Origin: a virus
Length of the DNA: 55,018 nucleotides
Strand: one strand, 5' to 3'
IMG/VR virus record: IMGVR_UViG_3300006903_000014
Location: 1 to 55,018 of that record
Shown here piece after piece: positions 2,952 through 50,009 of the stretch (positions are counted from its first letter, which is position 1; each line of letters opens with the position of its first letter). A program made the position numbers and the translations under genes. Under the pieces are notes generated by a model that was not told the DNA's origin, searched no databases, and worked only from the letters and a program-made list of their open reading frames with translations.

Positions 2952-3440
2952 TCAGCCTTCGTCGTCGACCTGGACCCGGTCCGCCGGTCTCGGGACGCGA
3001 TCGCCCTCGAGAACGTGCCTCAGCAGGCCCCGCGCGCGGTCGATGGCGCCCGGATCGTTCCACTCGAGGCAGCGGCCGCTCGGATGCGGCAGCCGGTAGG
3101 CCGTGAAGCATCCCCGCGAGCCGCTGAGGGCGCTGCCCCAGACGGCGCCCGTGAACACCGAGAAGTCCGCGCCGAACGCCTGCGCCACCTTGGAGCCCAG
3201 CAGGATCAGCGTCCGCGGCTCCCCCGCCAGGATCAAGGCGGACCGCGCGCGCGCCCGCACGAGGTCCCACGGCCCCTCGCACAGGTTCACGCGATCGAAC
3301 GTGCGCAGGTACTCGCGCTCGGTCAAGCCCAGGATCTTGAAGCACAGCCTCCAGCCGGCGCAGCCCTTGGGCAGCGGGTAGAGCGCATAGCGCGGGTCTA
3401 GCGAGCGCGGGTTATCCTCGCCGATGAGCAGGGGCTTCAC
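2952..3440 (-). CDS. Uracil-DNA glycosylase-superfamily protein
   Basis: The 162-residue protein begins with LLIGEDNP (residues 4-11), the position of UDG motif A. It ends its fold with LPHPSGR (117-123), the motif B loop that enters the DNA minor groove. In between lie a YPLP.GCAGWRL block, VNLC at 51-54 and LILLGSKVAQAFG at 78-90, all typical of the short phage UDG-like family. UDG-fold proteins excise uracil or, in some phage groups, act on or recognise modified bases. The GTG start overlaps the upstream stop (GTGA). It is two genes downstream of the glycosyltransferase, so a part in base modification or its quality control is plausible but inferred. Confidence 0.75.
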   Translation of the reverse strand: MKPLLIGEDNPRSLDPRYALYPLPKGCAGWRLCFKILGLTEREYLRTFDRVNLCEGPWDLVRARARSALILAGEPRTLILLGSKVAQAFGADFSVFTGAVWGSALSGSRGCFTAYRLPHPSGRCLEWNDPGAIDRARGLLRHVLEGDRVPRPADRVQVDDEG

Positions 3441-3730
3441 TGACGCCGCTTCCGGCCCTCGGCCTCGCGCTCGAGGCGCGCCGCCCGGTCCGCCCGCGCG
3501 AGCGTCTCATCGTCGAATTGATCGAGGTCCCTACCGGCCTGCAACACCTCGTCCAGCGCGGCGCCGTCTCGCGGCGGCGACGGCGGGACGGGAGTGCAGC
3601 CCGGAATGTAGCGCGGCGCATTGGTGCCCCTCTCGTCGGAGATGGGCGTGCTGGGCGGTCCGCCATGGCGATAGACGTCCCGGATGACGAGCCCCAGCGC
3701 GAGGACGAGCAAACCGGCGATCACGATCAT
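3437..3730 (-). CDS. Single-pass membrane protein, 97 aa
   Basis: Residues 1-16 (MIVIAGLLVLALGLVI) form one transmembrane segment at the very N-terminus. A Pro-rich linker follows, then a charged helical tail (DLDQFDDETLARADRAARLE). That layout recalls an inner-membrane spanin or anchored accessory protein. The ATG at 3728-3730 uses an AGGTGA site that is also the stop of the glycosyltransferase gene. No enzymatic motif. Assignment as spanin is unproven. Confidence 0.6.
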   Translation of the reverse strand: MIVIAGLLVLALGLVIRDVYRHGGPPSTPISDERGTNAPRYIPGCTPVPPSPPRDGAALDEVLQAGRDLDQFDDETLARADRAARLEREAEGRKRRQ

Positions 3731-3734
3731 GGCG

Positions 3735-4619
3735 TCACCTCCCCTTTTTGCTATCTCCGAGCAGCTTCTGCAGCCCGGCGCTCCGGACGTCCTTGACCTG
3801 CTCGAGGCGCAGGCCGTATTCATTGGGCGCCGCGTCCACGACCGCTCCCGGCTTGAGCCTCAGCGGCGTGTCGAAGCCCCGCCAGGCGCCGCGGATCACG
3901 TGCTGAGGCCTCTTGAAGCGCCTCTTGGTAGCGACCACGTACGGCCAGACCCGCTCCAGGCTGCGCGCCATCCGCAGCCGGCCGTCTCCCTGGTAGAGCT
4001 GGTCCGTGTTGCCCCCCCGCATCGTCATCGTGTGGAGCTTGTTCGCCATGAAGACGTTGATCAGGGCCGTACACCAGCCGCTAGAGAGGACCTGAAGGCA
4101 CAGGTCGGTGTCCTCGTTGTACCGACCGCGCCAGCGGAACGGCAGGCTGTTCATAATCAGGATGCAGGAATAGACATGCACGTTCAGGTAGAACGGCGGC
4201 GCGCTCTGGATGCAGAACATCTGATAGTTCAGGCCCGCCATTGCGAGGTTCTCGTAGCGGTCCGCGAAGTCCTCGCACGCCGCCAGCGCCGGCCCGGAGT
4301 CGCACATCAGCCGCCGACCTCGCCACCACCTCCGGATGTAGCGGATGTTGTCGTCCAGGATCCAGTGGCGCTCCGCCCCCGACGCGACCGCGTGGCCCCA
4401 GATCCAATTGCGGGCCGGAGTCGAGCCCAGACCGAGATTCGAGAACGGCAGCACGAGCAGCGAGTCCTCGCCCCACGCGGCCGCGTACGCCTCGCGCTCC
4501 TGCGGCTCGACGACCAGCTTGAACGGCACGCCGTCCGCCCGCAGGAACCGCGCCGTCAGCGCGAGCGCGCGCTCCGAACGCCCCTTGGACGGCACGTAGA
4601 TGGGATAGCGCGGGTTCAC
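3735..4619 (-). CDS. TET-associated-type glycosyltransferase (TAGT), putative DNA-base glycosyltransferase
   Basis: This 294-residue protein has the hallmarks of the GT-A family that accompanies TET/JBP dioxygenases in phages: YPIYVPSKGR (residues 5-14), LVVEPQE (35-41), LLVLPFSNLG (54-63), ARNWIW (69-74) and HWILDDNIR (85-93), where DDN stands in for the metal-binding DxD. YNEDTDLCLQ (167-176) supplies a second acidic site. Family members are proposed or shown to add sugars to 5-hydroxymethylcytosine in phage DNA. The GTG start overlaps the stop of the ParB-like gene (GTGA), so the two are translated together. The dioxygenase and cytosine methyltransferase partners are not in this window. 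Family call is strong; substrate is inferred. Confidence 0.85.
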   Translation of the reverse strand: MNPRYPIYVPSKGRSERALALTARFLRADGVPFKLVVEPQEREAYAAAWGEDSLLVLPFSNLGLGSTPARNWIWGHAVASGAERHWILDDNIRYIRRWWRGRRLMCDSGPALAACEDFADRYENLAMAGLNYQMFCIQSAPPFYLNVHVYSCILIMNSLPFRWRGRYNEDTDLCLQVLSSGWCTALINVFMANKLHTMTMRGGNTDQLYQGDGRLRMARSLERVWPYVVATKRRFKRPQHVIRGAWRGFDTPLRLKPGAVVDAAPNEYGLRLEQVKDVRSAGLQKLLGDSKKGR

Positions 4620-5719
4620 TCGCCCTCGCCGTCGGTCGCGACCGGCGCCGGCTCCGCGCCCGACCTGAAGCGGAGCGACACGAGGTCCTCGCGCTCCCTC
4701 TCCGGCCACCAGATCGACCAGACGGCCCCGTTCTTCTTGCTTACCACCGTGGCTCCGATCTGCTCCATGAAGCGTGCCCGGTCGCCCTCGTTGTCGAACT
4801 GGACGACGAGGCGCTGGACCTGCCCCGCGGGCTCGTATTCGGGCAGGCCCGCCCACGCGGCGGCGGCGTCCTTGTCGCGCAGCTCGCCCGCCGGCCGCGT
4901 GGTCAGCGCGAGGGCCGCGAGCTGGTTCCCGTCGAAGCCGGTCCCCTCGAGCCCGCCGTCTCCCATCAGTTCCTTCAGCAGCTCGGTGAGCGCGCGGTCG
5001 TCCACCTCGGCCAGGTTGCGGATTTCGTTCTCGCTCTCCATGATCCGGAGCGCGCGCGGATCCTCGGGTCCGACCGCGATGCGAACCGCCGGCACGCGCT
5101 CTAGCCCCATCGACTGCGCCGCCTCGACGACGCCGTGGCCCACCAGGATCGTGCCGTCCCGCGCCACCACGATGTTGCGGAAGAACCCGTGTCGCGTGAT
5201 GCTCGCGACCAGGTGCGCTATCTGATCCGCCGGGTGCTTCCGGTAGTTGCGCGGGTGGGGCTTGAGGTCCCTCAGCGCCACGGAGCGGGTCTCCGCGAGC
5301 CCCTCGAAGCCCCACGTCTCCAGGTCGGTCCACTCGTAGAAGTCGGCCAGCTTGTCGTAGTCCCAGTCGCCCGCGTTGCGGTTCAGCCGGACGTTCAGCT
5401 CCTCGACCTCTCCGGGCTCGAGCTGGCGCGAGGGCACGCGCACGTCGACCAGGGCGCCGGGCTCCACGATGGACTGCGCCAGGAGCACCCGCCTCCGCAT
5501 GTGCCCGCCGAGGACGGTCCCGTCCAGGTTCACGGCGATCGGCTCGACGTAGCCGAACCGCCGCAGGCTCTCCGCGAGGTCCGCGGCCTGGCGCTCCGTG
5601 AGCTGGCGCGGGTTCCGCTCCCACTCGACGAGGCTCGACAGCGGCCGCTGCTCCGTGTGCCACTCGATCGCCGCGCGGGTCGGCCGAGCCCTGGCGACCG
5701 GCTTCCTGCGGGGGCTCAC
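4616..5719 (-). CDS. Tandem ParB-like nuclease-domain protein
   Basis: Two ParB N-terminal domains lie in one 367-residue chain. The first (about 25-110) has NPRQLTERQAADLAESLRR and GTVLGGHMRRR at 67-77. The second (about 145-215) has PHPRNYR, a HGFFRNIVV strand and GTILVGHGVVEAA at 189-201. A C-terminal segment near 305-345 (VVQFDNEGDRARFMEQIG, then SIWWP) matches the tail seen on ParB proteins of phage TET and methylase loci. ParB domains there are thought to bind or nick DNA and guide modification. It overlaps the TAGT gene by four bases. The exact role is inferred from association. Confidence 0.85.
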   Translation of the reverse strand: MSPRRKPVARARPTRAAIEWHTEQRPLSSLVEWERNPRQLTERQAADLAESLRRFGYVEPIAVNLDGTVLGGHMRRRVLLAQSIVEPGALVDVRVPSRQLEPGEVEELNVRLNRNAGDWDYDKLADFYEWTDLETWGFEGLAETRSVALRDLKPHPRNYRKHPADQIAHLVASITRHGFFRNIVVARDGTILVGHGVVEAAQSMGLERVPAVRIAVGPEDPRALRIMESENEIRNLAEVDDRALTELLKELMGDGGLEGTGFDGNQLAALALTTRPAGELRDKDAAAAWAGLPEYEPAGQVQRLVVQFDNEGDRARFMEQIGATVVSKKNGAVWSIWWPEREREDLVSLRFRSGAEPAPVATDGEGE

Positions 5720-6027
5720 GCGAGGGTGATCTTGGCGCCGAGGCGATTGGAGAGGCGCGCCTCGTACCGCTCACGCTCGCGCTCCGCCTGGTCGGCCTGC
5801 GCCCGCACGTACTCTTCGGGGGTGATGATCCCCTTCTCGATGAGAAGCGCCGCCAGTGCCGCCTGACCGCATAGCGCCAGGTTCACCCCAACTCGCAGGT
5901 GCTTGGGCGTGGTCTCGCCGCTCGCTGCCCCCTGGCCGCGCGTGTTCAGCTCCATCTCCATCGCCACGCCCGACTGAATCGCGTGGCACGCCGCCTCGTA
6001 TCGCTTCTGGTCCTTGCTCTCCGCCAT
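5716..6027 (-). CDS. Conserved phage hypothetical protein, 103 aa
   Basis: The sequence KHLRVGVNLALCGQAALAAL followed by LIEKGIITPEEYVRA recalls a small phage family (D.RVG.N.A....AL..LL..KGIIT.EEY) found near replication and modification genes, with no known activity. It ends in a charged helix and ITLA. It overlaps the ParB-like start (GTGA), so it is probably part of the same translational unit as the modification genes. No membrane or metal motif. Confidence 0.65.
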   Translation of the reverse strand: MAESKDQKRYEAACHAIQSGVAMEMELNTRGQGAASGETTPKHLRVGVNLALCGQAALAALLIEKGIITPEEYVRAQADQAERERERYEARLSNRLGAKITLA

Positions 6028-14734: not shown

Positions 14735-15060
14735 GACTCGAGCCCCATGGCCTTCTCTATCGCCCGCTCGATCGCCTCGACCTCGATCGCGTCCGTAGGC
14801 CATGAGCCTATCGCTGCCGCGGCAGCCTCCGCGATTCGCCTCGTCGCTCCGGCGCCCAGGACCAGGACCCGATGGTCGTCGCAGACCGGCATGCTGCCGA
14901 GCAGCAGCGTCCAGCCGCGCGGCGGACGAAGATATGCCTCGGCGATGTATCGGCTCGGCCCGCCGCCGGGAGCCGGCGAGAGGCGCGTGACGTCGTCTTT
15001 CTGGCAGAATCGGCAACGCCACGTGACGTCCACGTCGAGGTCCGTCTTACGGTCAGCCAC
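14731..15060 (-). CDS. Small CxxC protein, 109 aa
   Basis: One CRFC pair near residue 16 and a VCDDHR near residue 59 suggest a zinc-ribbon half. The C-terminal helix is acidic (DAIEVEAIERAIEKAMGLES). GTG start, eight-base overlap with the Nudix gene. Function unknown. Confidence 0.55.
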   Translation of the reverse strand: MADRKTDLDVDVTWRCRFCQKDDVTRLSPAPGGGPSRYIAEAYLRPPRGWTLLLGSMPVCDDHRVLVLGAGATRRIAEAAAAAIGSWPTDAIEVEAIERAIEKAMGLES

Positions 15061-15559
15061 GGGGCACCTCGAATATCTGCGCGCGGGCGATGTCCTCGTC
15101 GAGCGCGAGCGGAATCAGCCACAGGAGATTCGGTACGAAGGCGAGCCCCGTCAGGCCCCCCGGCGAAGCGGGACCACACCAGAGCGTCTCGTCCGTCCGC
15201 GGCATCAATGTCGACATGCCGTCCAGCGTCCACTTCGCCGCGAAGAAATGCACGGCCCAGCCACGGGCGTCGGACAAGGAGGCGTAGTGGCGCCATGTAA
15301 AATCGGGCGGGTCGCGCAGCGCATCCACGGTGCTGATTCCTGGATCGGCGACGCCGACCTCCTCGCGGAACTCCCTGCGCATCGCGTATTCGAAGGACGG
15401 GTCCGTCGGCTCGACCTTCCCGCCGATCCCGTTCAGGCGGCCGGCCTGCCACTCCGGCCTGCGCTTCCGGATCAGCAATACCCTCCTGTCGAACGGCGGC
15501 GTCGGGTCGGCGAACAGGAACCCGACGACGTAGTGGGTCCTCTTCGGGGCTCCCGTCAC
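15053..15559 (-). CDS. Nudix (MutT-like) hydrolase
   Basis: The Nudix box is intact: GGKVEPTDPSFEYAMRREFR (residues 46-65) followed by EEVGV, giving G-x5-E-x7-REUxEExGU. The N-terminus (YVVGFLFADP; RVLLIRKRRPEWQAG) has the usual first strand and lysine/arginine-rich loop. These enzymes cleave nucleoside diphosphates linked to another group, for example sugar nucleotides or damaged dNTPs. With a DNA glycosyltransferase in the genome, a sugar-nucleotide or modified-nucleotide substrate is conceivable but not shown. GTG start at 15559 in GTGA. Confidence 0.85.
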   Translation of the reverse strand: MTGAPKRTHYVVGFLFADPTPPFDRRVLLIRKRRPEWQAGRLNGIGGKVEPTDPSFEYAMRREFREEVGVADPGISTVDALRDPPDFTWRHYASLSDARGWAVHFFAAKWTLDGMSTLMPRTDETLWCGPASPGGLTGLAFVPNLLWLIPLALDEDIARAQIFEVPRG

Positions 15560-15825
15560 GACTCGCTCCGCCTCGTCGAGCAGAGCTGAGCCAGGGCCCG
15601 GCACTCGGACGCGGCCTCGATGAACGAGTGCTCGAGGTCGTACAGCGAGCGCGGCGGCAGGTCGCTGACGGCCAGGCCCCCGTTCAGGAGCATCTGGAGC
15701 GGCCCCTGGACGACCGCGATGCGCTGGATGTGGAATCCCAGCAGCCCCCAGCGCGCGGTGGGCTCCTCCGGCGTGCCCTTCTGCTGCTCGAGCGTCCGCT
15801 TCGCCTCGTCACACTGCTTGCACAT
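15556..15825 (-). CDS. Hypothetical protein, 89 aa
   Basis: Starts with a CxxC (MCKQCDEAKR), followed by a helical domain (IQRIAVVQGPLQMLLNGGLA; SLYDLEHSFIEAASECRALA). No family recognised. A GGGGGG tract lies just before the ATG. Confidence 0.55.
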   Translation of the reverse strand: MCKQCDEAKRTLEQQKGTPEEPTARWGLLGFHIQRIAVVQGPLQMLLNGGLAVSDLPPRSLYDLEHSFIEAASECRALAQLCSTRRSES

Positions 15826-17057: not shown

Positions 17058-17176
17058 CACGCCCTCCCGTGGCAGCGCGGGCAACGACCGCCCTCGGCGC
17101 GCCGATGGCCGAGGAGACCGCAGGCGATCCCGCGGAGCCATCGTCCCAGCGCCGCGACGCCCACCCGACTCGACAT
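17057..17176 (-). CDS. Tiny basic protein with CPRC knuckle, 39 aa
   Basis: Below usual gene-calling length, but the ATG overlaps the upstream stop (TGATG) and its stop overlaps the next ATG. The sequence has a hydrophobic helix (GVAALGRWLRGIACGLLGHR) followed by CPRCHGRA. Membrane contact or zinc binding is possible. Confidence 0.4.
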   Translation of the reverse strand: MSSRVGVAALGRWLRGIACGLLGHRRAEGGRCPRCHGRA

Positions 17177-17697
17177 CAGCTCCACTCCGCTGGACGCAAC
17201 GACGCCGGGAGATAGAGGGGGTGCGCGGGGCTGCCGTCCTTGTTCAGGGCCAGGACGCTCAGCCGAACGCCCAGCGCCCGCAGCATCGAACGCACGTAGC
17301 GGCAGTGGGCGGCATATCCCGGCACCGAGCGCCCCGACCTGCCCCACGCGGCGATCACCAGTTGCGCCTGCGCCGCGTTGCCCGAGATGAAGCCGGCGTT
17401 CTGCGGCCCCTCCGGCTCCGGGTCGCGCGCGAGGTCCATCGGATCGGTGGCCCGCCGCGCGTAGAGGTTCACGACGACCATGCCGCCGAACCCCAGGTCC
17501 CGGGAGAAGCGCGCGCACCGACGAATCGTCGGGTCGTCGTCCATCCCGTCCGCCGTCGACGGGTTCAGCATGATCCAGCACGGTCGCGTCGCGAGCATTC
17601 CCGGCGCCCACCAGTGGCGCCAGAGGCTGTAGCGATATCGGCCATCCTCCGAGATGACCGCGCCCCCCGTCCATTCGTCGCGCGCCGGCATGATCAT
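17176..17697 (-). CDS. DUF1643 family protein
   Basis: The core CWIMLNPSTADGMDDDPTIR (residues 40-59), RCARFSRDLGF and GMVVVNLYARRATDP define this family; the 173-residue length is normal. DUF1643 proteins occur in bacteria and many phages. Their biochemical role is not established, though the conserved NPS.AD.. and acidic residues suggest an active site. ATG overlaps the upstream stop. A longer frame to 17763 is not needed. Confidence 0.85.
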   Translation of the reverse strand: MIMPARDEWTGGAVISEDGRYRYSLWRHWWAPGMLATRPCWIMLNPSTADGMDDDPTIRRCARFSRDLGFGGMVVVNLYARRATDPMDLARDPEPEGPQNAGFISGNAAQAQLVIAAWGRSGRSVPGYAAHCRYVRSMLRALGVRLSVLALNKDGSPAHPLYLPASLRPAEWS

Positions 17698-18209
17698 CTC
17701 CGCCTCCCCAGACCCAGCTCCTCCATCGGCTCGGGCAGGCCGATGGCCGCGCGCCTTGCCCACGCGGCGCGCAGGGCCGCCGTGAACTGACGCATGACGT
17801 ATCGGCGCCCGCGGTCGTCCTCCTCGAACGCCTCGTGCCCTCCGACCGCCTCGAACGCCTCGGCGACCTCCGGCCCGAGGTCGCGCGCGATCACGTAGTG
17901 GACGCGACGGCGCTGGCCGCCGCCCATCTCGACGGCGCTCCTGTCGACGGCGCGGAACGCCTCGTTGGCGGCGGCGACCTCCGCGGCCTCCCGCTCGCGC
18001 CGCTTCGCCTCGAGAAGCATCGCCGGTGGCGGGAGCCGCGTGGAGCGCCAGGTGCTAAGCGTCTCGGAGACCGCGACTCTCCACTCGTCGTCGGTGAGCT
18101 GCGGCGCGATCACCCCGCGGTAGACGTTAAGCAGGTCCTCCGTGGGCTCGCGGTCATAGGCCACGCAGAGCGCGTGCATCCCGGCGGCGAACGCCGCATC
18201 GCTGATCAC
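17694..18209 (-). CDS. Candidate replication accessory protein (helicase-loader N-domain type)
   Basis: The N-terminal 75 residues (LLNVYRGVIAPQLTDDEWRV, then AVSETLSTWRSTRLPPPAML) resemble the helical domain that begins phage helicase-loader and inhibitor proteins: Y...L..L.DEE...AV, followed by a P.PA.LL motif. No Walker A motif is present, so it is not a DnaC-type ATPase. The C-terminal half is helical with a basic end. If the match holds, it could recruit the host helicase, which fits the lack of a phage helicase here. Similarity judged by eye only. Confidence 0.45.
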   Translation of the reverse strand: MISDAAFAAGMHALCVAYDREPTEDLLNVYRGVIAPQLTDDEWRVAVSETLSTWRSTRLPPPAMLLEAKRREREAAEVAAANEAFRAVDRSAVEMGGGQRRRVHYVIARDLGPEVAEAFEAVGGHEAFEEDDRGRRYVMRQFTAALRAAWARRAAIGLPEPMEELGLGRRR

Positions 18210-47941: not shown

Positions 47942-48172
47942 CTACTCCCTCCTTCGGCGCGCCGGCACATCGGCCTCGGGCGCCCTGTCGACCGTCTCGA
48001 TCACGGGCCCGCCGTCCGGGATCTTGACCAGCCCGGACGCGAGCATCTTCTCGGCCCACTCGGGCTCGACCTCATTGACGCCGCGCTCGAGCTGGATGCC
48101 CGAGGGCGGATGATACGTGCCCTGCCCGGCCGAAGCCGGGTCCACCGCGGGCCCTGGATATTCGACCTTCAC
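47942..48172 (-). CDS. Small hypothetical structural-side protein, 76 aa
   Basis: KVEYPGPAVDPASAGQGTYH, LERGVNEVEPEWAEKMLASG and a basic end. Such small proteins often sit between neck and tube genes. No family recognised. Confidence 0.5.
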   Translation of the reverse strand: MKVEYPGPAVDPASAGQGTYHPPSGIQLERGVNEVEPEWAEKMLASGLVKIPDGGPVIETVDRAPEADVPARRRRE

Positions 48173-48840
48173 GGCGTCCTCCCTCGGAGAGCGAACGGGT
48201 AGTTGTCGGGACCCCAGGCGAACGGGGGCCCCAGCTCCGCGAGAGCGTCGCCCTCCGCGACCGTCTCGAGGCCGCCGGCTTCGAAGTGCGCGCGCCAGGC
48301 CGCCGGGTCCATGCAGAGGTAATGATTGCGCGGACCGGCCGAAATGCCAAGCCGGAAGTGGGGCGGCGTGGACGGCACCGTCGCCAGGATCATGTGCCGC
48401 GCGACCCGCCCCAGCTCGGCGAGCACGCGCGGCTGGAGCTCAAGGGGCAGGTGCTCCACGATGTCGAGCGCCACGACGACCTCGAAGGCGCCGTCCACGA
48501 ACGGCAGCGCGCAGGCGTCGGCGACAGCGCCGGCCCGCGTCCGGAAGTCCTCCCCGAGGTCCACCCCGACGGCGCGCAGCCCCCGGTCCCTCAGCTCCTC
48601 GACCAGGATCCCCCGGCCGCAGCCGAGGTCCAGCACGCGCCAGTCCGGCGGCAGGTCCTGGCCCCGGAGCAGCAGCTTGCGCAGCGCCAGGCAGACGCCG
48701 ACGGCGCTCCTGCGCCAGCGGTCCCTGTTGTCCCAGTGGCCGGGGCCGCCGTAGCCGCTCTCGAATCCTACGTCCTCGCCGAGGTTGTAGCGGGGGCCGT
48801 ACCTGGTGCGCAGGTCGGCCCTCAGCTCCTCGGGGGTCAA
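48169..48840 (-). CDS. SAM-dependent methyltransferase within the structural operon
   Basis: VLDLGCGRG (residues 69-77), VGVDLGEDF (91-99) and VVVALDIVEHLP are motifs I, II and post-II of class I methyltransferases. The N-terminus has LGEDVGFESGYGGPGHWDNR. TTG start overlaps the stop of the glycosyltransferase gene (TTGA). Probably methylates a sugar, lipid or protein substrate linked to the glycosyltransferase product. Confidence 0.75.
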   Translation of the reverse strand: MTPEELRADLRTRYGPRYNLGEDVGFESGYGGPGHWDNRDRWRRSAVGVCLALRKLLLRGQDLPPDWRVLDLGCGRGILVEELRDRGLRAVGVDLGEDFRTRAGAVADACALPFVDGAFEVVVALDIVEHLPLELQPRVLAELGRVARHMILATVPSTPPHFRLGISAGPRNHYLCMDPAAWRAHFEAGGLETVAEGDALAELGPPFAWGPDNYPFALRGRTP

Positions 48841-50009
48841 TTGGGCTGCCCCGCCGGCCCACCAGGCGCCTCGCTGGCGTGAGCGCCGGCCGGATGCCAG
48901 GGATGGATGCCCGCGGGGCCGTTCTGCGCGTCCCTGGGGGCGCCCAGCGCCTCGGTGGGCTCGGCGCCCGGGAATGTTCCACGTGGAACGTCCTGCCCGG
49001 CGGCCGCCTCGATCGCCCGGAGCAGCCCCTCCGCCGAGGCGCCCCAGGTCATCGAGCGGGCCCGGTGGACGCCCATGAGCCGGCGTGCCTCCAGGTCCGG
49101 GGAGCCGAACCCGGCCCGCGCGGTCCGCAGGCTGTCGGCCAGGTCGGCGATGCTGGCGACCTCGAGCCGGTAGGCCGCGTCCCCGTATCGGATCGAGACG
49201 ACGTCCCGCGTCGGCACGACGATCCCGTGGGAGTCGTCGAGGAAGTCCGCGTGGCCGCCGGTCAGCGGCGAGACGACCAGGCACCCCGCTGCCATCGCCT
49301 CGAGCGCCGGCAGGCCGAAGCCCTCGCCGTAGGACGTCGAGACGAACACGTCCGCCGAGGCGTAGAGCGCCAGCATGTCCGCCGGCTCCAGGTCGCGCCC
49401 GTCCACGAGCACGTGGTCCTGGCCGTTCATCCCCCGCACGATCCTGTCGGCCGGGTCCGTGGCGATGGTCTTCACGTAGAGCTGGGGCGGGTCCACCGCG
49501 CCCTCGAAGGCGCGCGCCCACGCCGGCGCCAGCCGGTCCCAGCCCTTGCGCTCGATCGGCGAGCCGACCCACAGGAATCGTCGCCTCGGCCCCGTCCCGG
49601 CCGCCATCGCGATGGTGCGCCGCGAGTAGTCTGTCGAGAGGAAGGACTCATGCACGCCGAGCGGGACCACCTGCGCCTCGAGCCCGTGCGCGCGCCAGAC
49701 CTCGGCGCAGTACGTCGACGGGACCACGAGGCGATCCGCCCTCGAGATCGGGTCGAGCAGGGCAGGGGGTATGACCGGCGCCTCCCACATAGTGAACAGC
49801 ACGTTGATCTTGCCCGGGACGGGCGCGAACCAGTGGGGCGGACAGAAGTGAAGGTGCGCCCTCGGGTCCGACCCCGCGGCGCCCGCGTCCCTCAGCGCCG
49901 GCCCCACGCGGCGCCTGAGCGCGTCGTAGAGATTGAAGGCGGCCGAGAGGTAGCCGCGGGCGATCCCGAGCCCTGCCGGGAAGCGGTAGTGGCGCCACGC
50001 CAGCTTCAC
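48837..50009 (-). CDS. GT4-type glycosyltransferase within the structural operon
   Basis: GT-B fold: the C-terminal domain has FLWVGSPIERKGWDRL, LYASADVFVSTSYGEGFGLP and ALEAMAAGCLVVSPLTGGHA, the usual donor-sugar site with its E-x7-E. The N-terminal domain binds the acceptor. A disordered Pro/Gly tail follows. Encoded between tail-terminator-type and tail-tube genes, it may glycosylate virion proteins. GTG start in GTGA. Confidence 0.8.
   Translation of the reverse strand: MKLAWRHYRFPAGLGIARGYLSAAFNLYDALRRRVGPALRDAGAAGSDPRAHLHFCPPHWFAPVPGKINVLFTMWEAPVIPPALLDPISRADRLVVPSTYCAEVWRAHGLEAQVVPLGVHESFLSTDYSRRTIAMAAGTGPRRRFLWVGSPIERKGWDRLAPAWARAFEGAVDPPQLYVKTIATDPADRIVRGMNGQDHVLVDGRDLEPADMLALYASADVFVSTSYGEGFGLPALEAMAAGCLVVSPLTGGHADFLDDSHGIVVPTRDVVSIRYGDAAYRLEVASIADLADSLRTARAGFGSPDLEARRLMGVHRARSMTWGASAEGLLRAIEAAAGQDVPRGTFPGAEPTEALGAPRDAQNGPAGIHPWHPAGAHASEAPGGPAGQPN

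Follow-up and report, generated by a model that had tools for sequence, protein, structure and literature searches.

A ParB-coupled phage cassette encoding a putative DNA-sugar transferase

A phage genome fragment carries a coupled gene pair, encoding a ParB-like protein and a TAGT-family glycosyltransferase, that probably attaches sugars to the DNA of the phage itself. A survey of relatives shows that this cassette is widespread, that it is characterized by an undescribed domain of about 54 residues found in 101 of 108 TAGT loci, and that the known enzymes for making the base that would be sugared are, as a rule, missing from the sampled virus records. The window, i.e. the whole stretch of DNA that was analysed, is the linear 55,018-base IMG/VR virus record IMGVR_UViG_3300006903_000014; it is about 70% G+C, with siphovirus-like structural genes mostly on the minus strand. 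The locus comprises the following features:

2952..3440 (-), UDG-like protein belonging to phrog_12275
3437..3730 (-), short ORF of 97 aa between the TAGT and UDG-like genes, matching no family
3735..4619 (-), TAGT-family glycosyltransferase, 294 aa, GTG start
4616..5719 (-), ParB-like protein, 367 aa, with two ParB domains plus a C-terminal tail domain
5300..5641 (-), first ParB domain (residues about 27-140), optional in relatives
4865..5293 (-), second ParB domain (residues about 143-285), conserved in the ParB-tail proteins aligned
4691..4855 (-), undescribed tail domain (WAGLPEY...SIWWPERER), the constant partner of TAGT in relatives
5716..6027 (-), short ORF of no assigned function overlapping the ParB start by 4 nt, probably on the same transcript

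The original prediction, that a TAGT glycosyltransferase overlaps by four bases a gene for a double ParB-domain protein with a SIWWP tail, is borne out by our analysis. Translation of the 3735-4619 frame yields the motifs YPIYVPSKGR, LVVEPQE, ARNW and HWILDDNI, and the product matches PF20691 over its full length (positions 1-205 of 205) at 149.6 bits against a cut-off of 27.5 (150.7 bits in the genome search). The motifs HWILDDN, NEDTD and MRGGN are invariant or nearly so in relatives, with D89 D90 N91, E169 D170 T171 D172 and R201 G202 G203 N204 being invariant in 12 aligned relatives. The junction reads GAGTGAACC, such that the GTG start of TAGT and the TGA stop of ParB overlap by 4 nt. In the ParB-like protein, the ParB_N domain (PF02195) is over cut-off for the second domain only (32.2 versus 26.3 bits); however, PHROG ParB families match both stretches (phrog_9353 at residues 35-139 for the first), and the AlphaFold model shows the same order of helices and strands twice, in residues 20-112 and 144-236. 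This model matches ParB, Noc and KorB structures, and PDB profile and fold searches gave hits to ParB, Noc and Spo0J; no ParA was present among the window proteins scanned. Both the open frames and the profile scores are far above chance.

The SIWWP tail belongs to a domain with the consensus WVGMPEFEQEDLEPFKKIIVHFETEEDREEFAKLIGQKITEKTKSIWFPKKE, which has no significant match in Pfam, PHROGs, NCBIfam or the PDB, and which could not, therefore, be equated with a known family. It is present in 101 of 108 TAGT sources; of the seven without it, two are cut off at the contig start. Its setting varies: among 192 TAGTs, 71 follow a ParB-tail protein, 62 a solo tail gene and 18 a longer tail protein not recognized as ParB, whereas 27 are fused to the tail, 2 are ParB-tail-TAGT in one frame, 2 are cut off by the contig end and 10 have none. 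The reverse test, using loci fetched by tail sequence alone (although the six annotated-phage loci fetched for TAGT are included in this count), shows that 78 of 88 tail domains are followed by TAGT within 700 nt; 7 more have it on the same strand at about 0.8-1 kb, one lies at a contig end and two are second copies just behind TAGT. In phages Aeh1 and POP12, a second, stand-alone tail domain lies directly behind tail-TAGT (L193:5134-5283; L195:4873-5022; L numbers denote loci fetched around TAGT or the tail). Moreover, in 50,697 annotated phage records, the tail query found 11 records, all of which are TAGT records. The exact 4-nt overlap is not a general rule: by a simple test, it occurs with a recognized start codon in 24 of 147 tail/TAGT pairs, and the common feature is, therefore, close coupling rather than a fixed overlap.

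The two single-chain ParB-tail-TAGT proteins are encoded by L059 and L099. The AlphaFold model of the L059 protein (501 aa, mean pLDDT 90.4) is predicted to contain ParB and GT-A folds, with GT-A structures among the best PDB hits; the predicted fold of TAGT rests on this relative only, in which the TAGT part is about half identical to that of the window. In the same model, the tail is predicted with confidence above 90, despite having one short helix and no assigned strands, whereas in the model of the ParB-tail protein alone the same region is mostly less certain. Given that alignment depth differs between the two models, the inference that the tail packs against TAGT is a modest one.

That DNA is the target is well supported, albeit indirectly, by four natural fusions that join TAGT to DNA enzymes, with domains checked in Pfam. 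L005:5450-8722 encodes tail-TAGT-3'-5' exonuclease-DNA polymerase A (1091 aa) and L130:6170-9364 encodes TAGT-UDG-exonuclease-polymerase A (1065 aa), with each named Pfam domain over its cut-off. Both come from metagenome contigs, and so an assembly error that removed a stop codon cannot be fully excluded, although the two have different architectures and lie apart on the tree. In L049:9596-11284 and L073:9280-11019, tail-TAGT is fused to a C-terminal UDG-like domain of the phrog_12275 type found in the window (GQAPG...HPSG motifs); here, the UDG match is below cut-off in Pfam, and both sequences were also among the seeds of our local profile. The UDG-like gene of the window is the next recognizable gene downstream of TAGT, and the same order is found in L023 and L098, which are among its nearest relatives on the TAGT tree; L023, the closest same-order relative, has a further ParB-like gene (4135-4743) just downstream of this operon. 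The window protein has no Pfam match of its own, but belongs to phrog_12275 (73.9 bits), another member of which matches PF03167 at 33.8 bits. All six members of this UDG-like family in the fetched loci lie within 400 nt of TAGT on its strand (five of the six were the seeds, and the loci were fetched around TAGT or the tail, but extend several kb). UDG is not, however, a general partner of TAGT: PF03167 was found in only 8 of 56 records, and only the phrog_12275-like subset is tightly linked.

The ParB domains themselves also point towards DNA modification, as their best match is PHROG 498, ParB-DNA methyltransferase (4e-49). Additionally, Microbacterium phage Terij and Pelagibacter phage HTVC112P have a ParB gene overlapping a TET gene by four bases. 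ParB plus a DNA-modifying enzyme is thus a recurrent pair, with methylase, TET or tail-TAGT in the enzyme place. Lactobacillus phage Ld17 has a short, gapped TAGT upstream of terminase where the related phage Ld25A has a shortened ParB (L207:75-833 and L208:90-515); these are, perhaps, remnants of one cassette.

No known source of the acceptor base was found in the window, the 55,018-base record showing no TET, C5-methylase or thymidylate-synthase-family gene, and this holds for most of the relatives. TET/JBP was found over the family's cut-off in 0 of 73 distinct TAGT virus records, 26 of which are 40 kb or longer, although most are fragments. The positive control, the TET of Nonlabens phage P12024L, was found at 96 bits, and the profile still scores the divergent Terij TET at 29 bits (E 7e-7). 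The only weak hit (15 bits over 59 positions, in the virus record G012) is a partial match within a generic 2-oxoglutarate dioxygenase frame, and was rejected. Thymidylate-synthase-family enzymes, which include the synthases of hydroxymethyl-dCMP and hydroxy-dCMP (PMC13390438), were found in 0 of 73 virus records, but in 5 of 5 large isolates with tail-TAGT (Aeh1, Kuja, POP12, PTm1 and henriette). C5-methylases were found in only 3 of 48 virus records. ThyX, considered as a source of a modified thymine, was found in 7 of 40 records but not in the window, and is not a general feature. Vibrio phage 1.076.O, an isolate of 47.9 kb with terminase and portal, has none of TET, C5-methylase or thymidylate synthase, although its record is labelled partial. 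Both this phage (MG592452) and Vibrio phage 1.124.O (MG592499) carry tail-TAGT fusions and no TET or thymidylate-synthase-family gene. The window lacks recognizable terminase or portal homologues, which are probably in the missing stretch that joins its two ends; absence from the window alone is, therefore, weak evidence, and a TET gene in that stretch cannot be excluded for this phage itself.

With respect to the sugar, 15 TAGT loci hold a nucleotide-sugar enzyme family of epimerase type. Two of its members were compared with solved structures and match UDP-glucuronate decarboxylase, that is UDP-xylose synthase, far ahead of any other family (407 versus 147 bits, and 300 versus 151 bits). One is directly downstream of TAGT in L022, whose TAGT is the most similar to that of the window (68%). 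A pentose is, therefore, a reasonable guess for these lineages, although the window itself shows no such gene. A sulfotransferase family gene lies between ParB-tail and TAGT in L041 (1646-2410), suggesting a sulfated sugar, and in L047, L072, L080, L088, L163 and L194 two TAGT genes are close together, as if two sugars were added in turn. Elsewhere in the window are a group 1 glycosyltransferase (48837-50009) and a SAM methyltransferase (48169-49572), which lie among the tail and head genes (48169-50009, -) and are possibly for virion or receptor glycans, together with a SASA-type carbohydrate esterase (PF03629; 33706-34773, -), and a NUDIX hydrolase and a DUF1643 protein (15053-15604, -, and 17176-17763, -).

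Based on the currently available data, we favour, with moderate confidence, a DNA-glycosylation cassette. In this view, the ParB-like protein would bind or load on phage DNA, its tail domain would dock the TAGT enzyme, and TAGT would transfer a sugar from a nucleotide-sugar (a pentose such as xylose in lineages that carry their own UDP-xylose synthase) to a base in the phage genome, during or soon after replication, with the UDG-like partner checking or preparing the acceptor base. The gene identities and domain content, the overlap, the conserved TAGT motifs, the near-obligate pairing of tail and TAGT, the fusions and the lack of known hydroxylating enzymes in the sampled records are seen directly in the sequences; by contrast, the loading of ParB on DNA, the docking role of the tail, catalysis of sugar transfer and a DNA base as its acceptor, the pentose and the action of the UDG-like protein are all inferred. 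Counting against this view are the lack of an enzyme that makes a hydroxylated base in the window or, as a rule, in the 73 records, and the presence of the UDG-like gene in only a minority of loci.

The reading placed on the gene pair by the original prediction, DNA cytosine hypermodification in a family that follows TET dioxygenases, is supported only in part. The TAGT assignment and the functional coupling to ParB are supported, whereas cytosine as the base is, on present evidence, a supposition. The suggestion that TET and a C5-methylase lie in the missing part is not supported by the survey; the alternative offered alongside it, a base made another way, fits better, but the known nucleotide-level route, through the thymidylate-synthase family, is absent as well. 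A yet more speculative possibility, which we regard as rather unlikely but cannot rule out, is that cassettes of this type glycosylate DNA without TET, a C5-methylase or any thymidylate-synthase-family enzyme: the ParB-tail-TAGT complex, with its UDG-like partner and sometimes the DNA polymerase itself, would put a sugar (probably a pentose in some lineages) on DNA by a route not yet described, for example directly on a standard base or by base exchange.

Several other explanations were weighed, and all appear unlikely. In the classical TET route, a C5-methylase and a TET dioxygenase in the unsequenced few kb would make hmC (or hmU), which TAGT would glycosylate; this is in keeping with the name and origin of the family, with TET being next to TAGT in P12024L, and with the missing terminase and portal, as in Terij TET sits exactly in that stretch. 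The survey counts given above nevertheless speak against it; moreover, among annotated phages, TET (80 records) and TAGT (24 records) overlap in the listed rows only in P12024L. Glycosylation of a virion or packaging protein (capsid, portal or terminase) is slightly less improbable. Terminase-like genes lie within 9 kb of TAGT in at least 58 of about 106 loci (for one of the four gene clusters, 7 loci, the terminase reading is ours and not that of Pfam), which would also suit a packaging or virion role; glycosyltransferases between portal and protease genes are proposed to modify capsids in phage Corndog (PMC4351075); and no base-hydroxylating enzyme is present. Against this are the fusions to DNA polymerase A and UDG, and the coupling to ParB proteins of the DNA-methylase and TET type. 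Furthermore, the thymidylate-synthase-family enzymes of the five large isolates would be expected if TAGT acts on a modified pyrimidine there. Least likely is that TAGT modifies host DNA or a cell-surface glycan and that the ParB link reflects only shared transcription: the GT-A fold hits do include wall and surface transferases such as TarP, and UDP-sugar synthesis genes are common in surface-glycan loci, but the reciprocal tail-TAGT pairing and the single-chain ParB-tail-TAGT proteins go beyond shared transcription.

TAGT and ParB are known families, and a 2026 study of T4 glucosyltransferases reported solitary TAGTs in 288 of 753 phage genomes without explanation (PMC13216743). Our survey suggests what many of these may be: parts of a ParB-coupled cassette with its own tail domain, linked to DNA polymerase and UDG by gene fusion, and not to TET. 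We found no description of the tail domain, of the ParB-tail-TAGT architecture or of the TAGT-UDG and TAGT-polymerase fusions, although our reading did not extend to some key older papers and priority is, therefore, not certain. The question thereby becomes testable in isolates already in collections, and the possibility is raised of a base-glycosylation route without the known hydroxylating enzymes, which would bear on phage escape from restriction and CRISPR, and on enzymes for DNA labelling.

The cassette may be compared with five known systems. The beta-glucosyl-HMC-alpha-glucosyltransferase of T2/T6 (PHROG 842) belongs to the same Pfam family and is a DNA glycosyltransferase with a GT-A fold, the T6 enzyme adding glucose to glucosyl-hmC in DNA (PMC13216743); however, the T-even enzyme adds a second sugar on hmC made by a dCMP hydroxymethylase, whereas here no such enzyme was found and a ParB-tail partner is present instead. 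Nonlabens phage P12024L, a small phage, also has a TAGT family member, but with TET immediately upstream, no tail domain, 26% identity to the window TAGT and a very long branch on the tree. The ParB-TET pairs of Terij and HTVC112P share a ParB-like gene that overlaps by 4 nt that of a DNA-base-modifying enzyme, upstream of terminase, but the enzyme is a dioxygenase and no tail domain of this type was detected. The ParB-DNA methyltransferase proteins of phages (PHROG 498) have the closest ParB domains by profile, likewise coupled to a DNA-modifying enzyme, with a methylase in place of tail-TAGT. Finally, the pentose modification of Shewanella phage Thanatos and the arabinosylation of RB69-like phages use pentose donors made by phage enzymes for DNA modification (PMC12838424, PMC13390438), although those phages encode thymidylate-synthase-family enzymes thought to make the acceptor, and none was found here.
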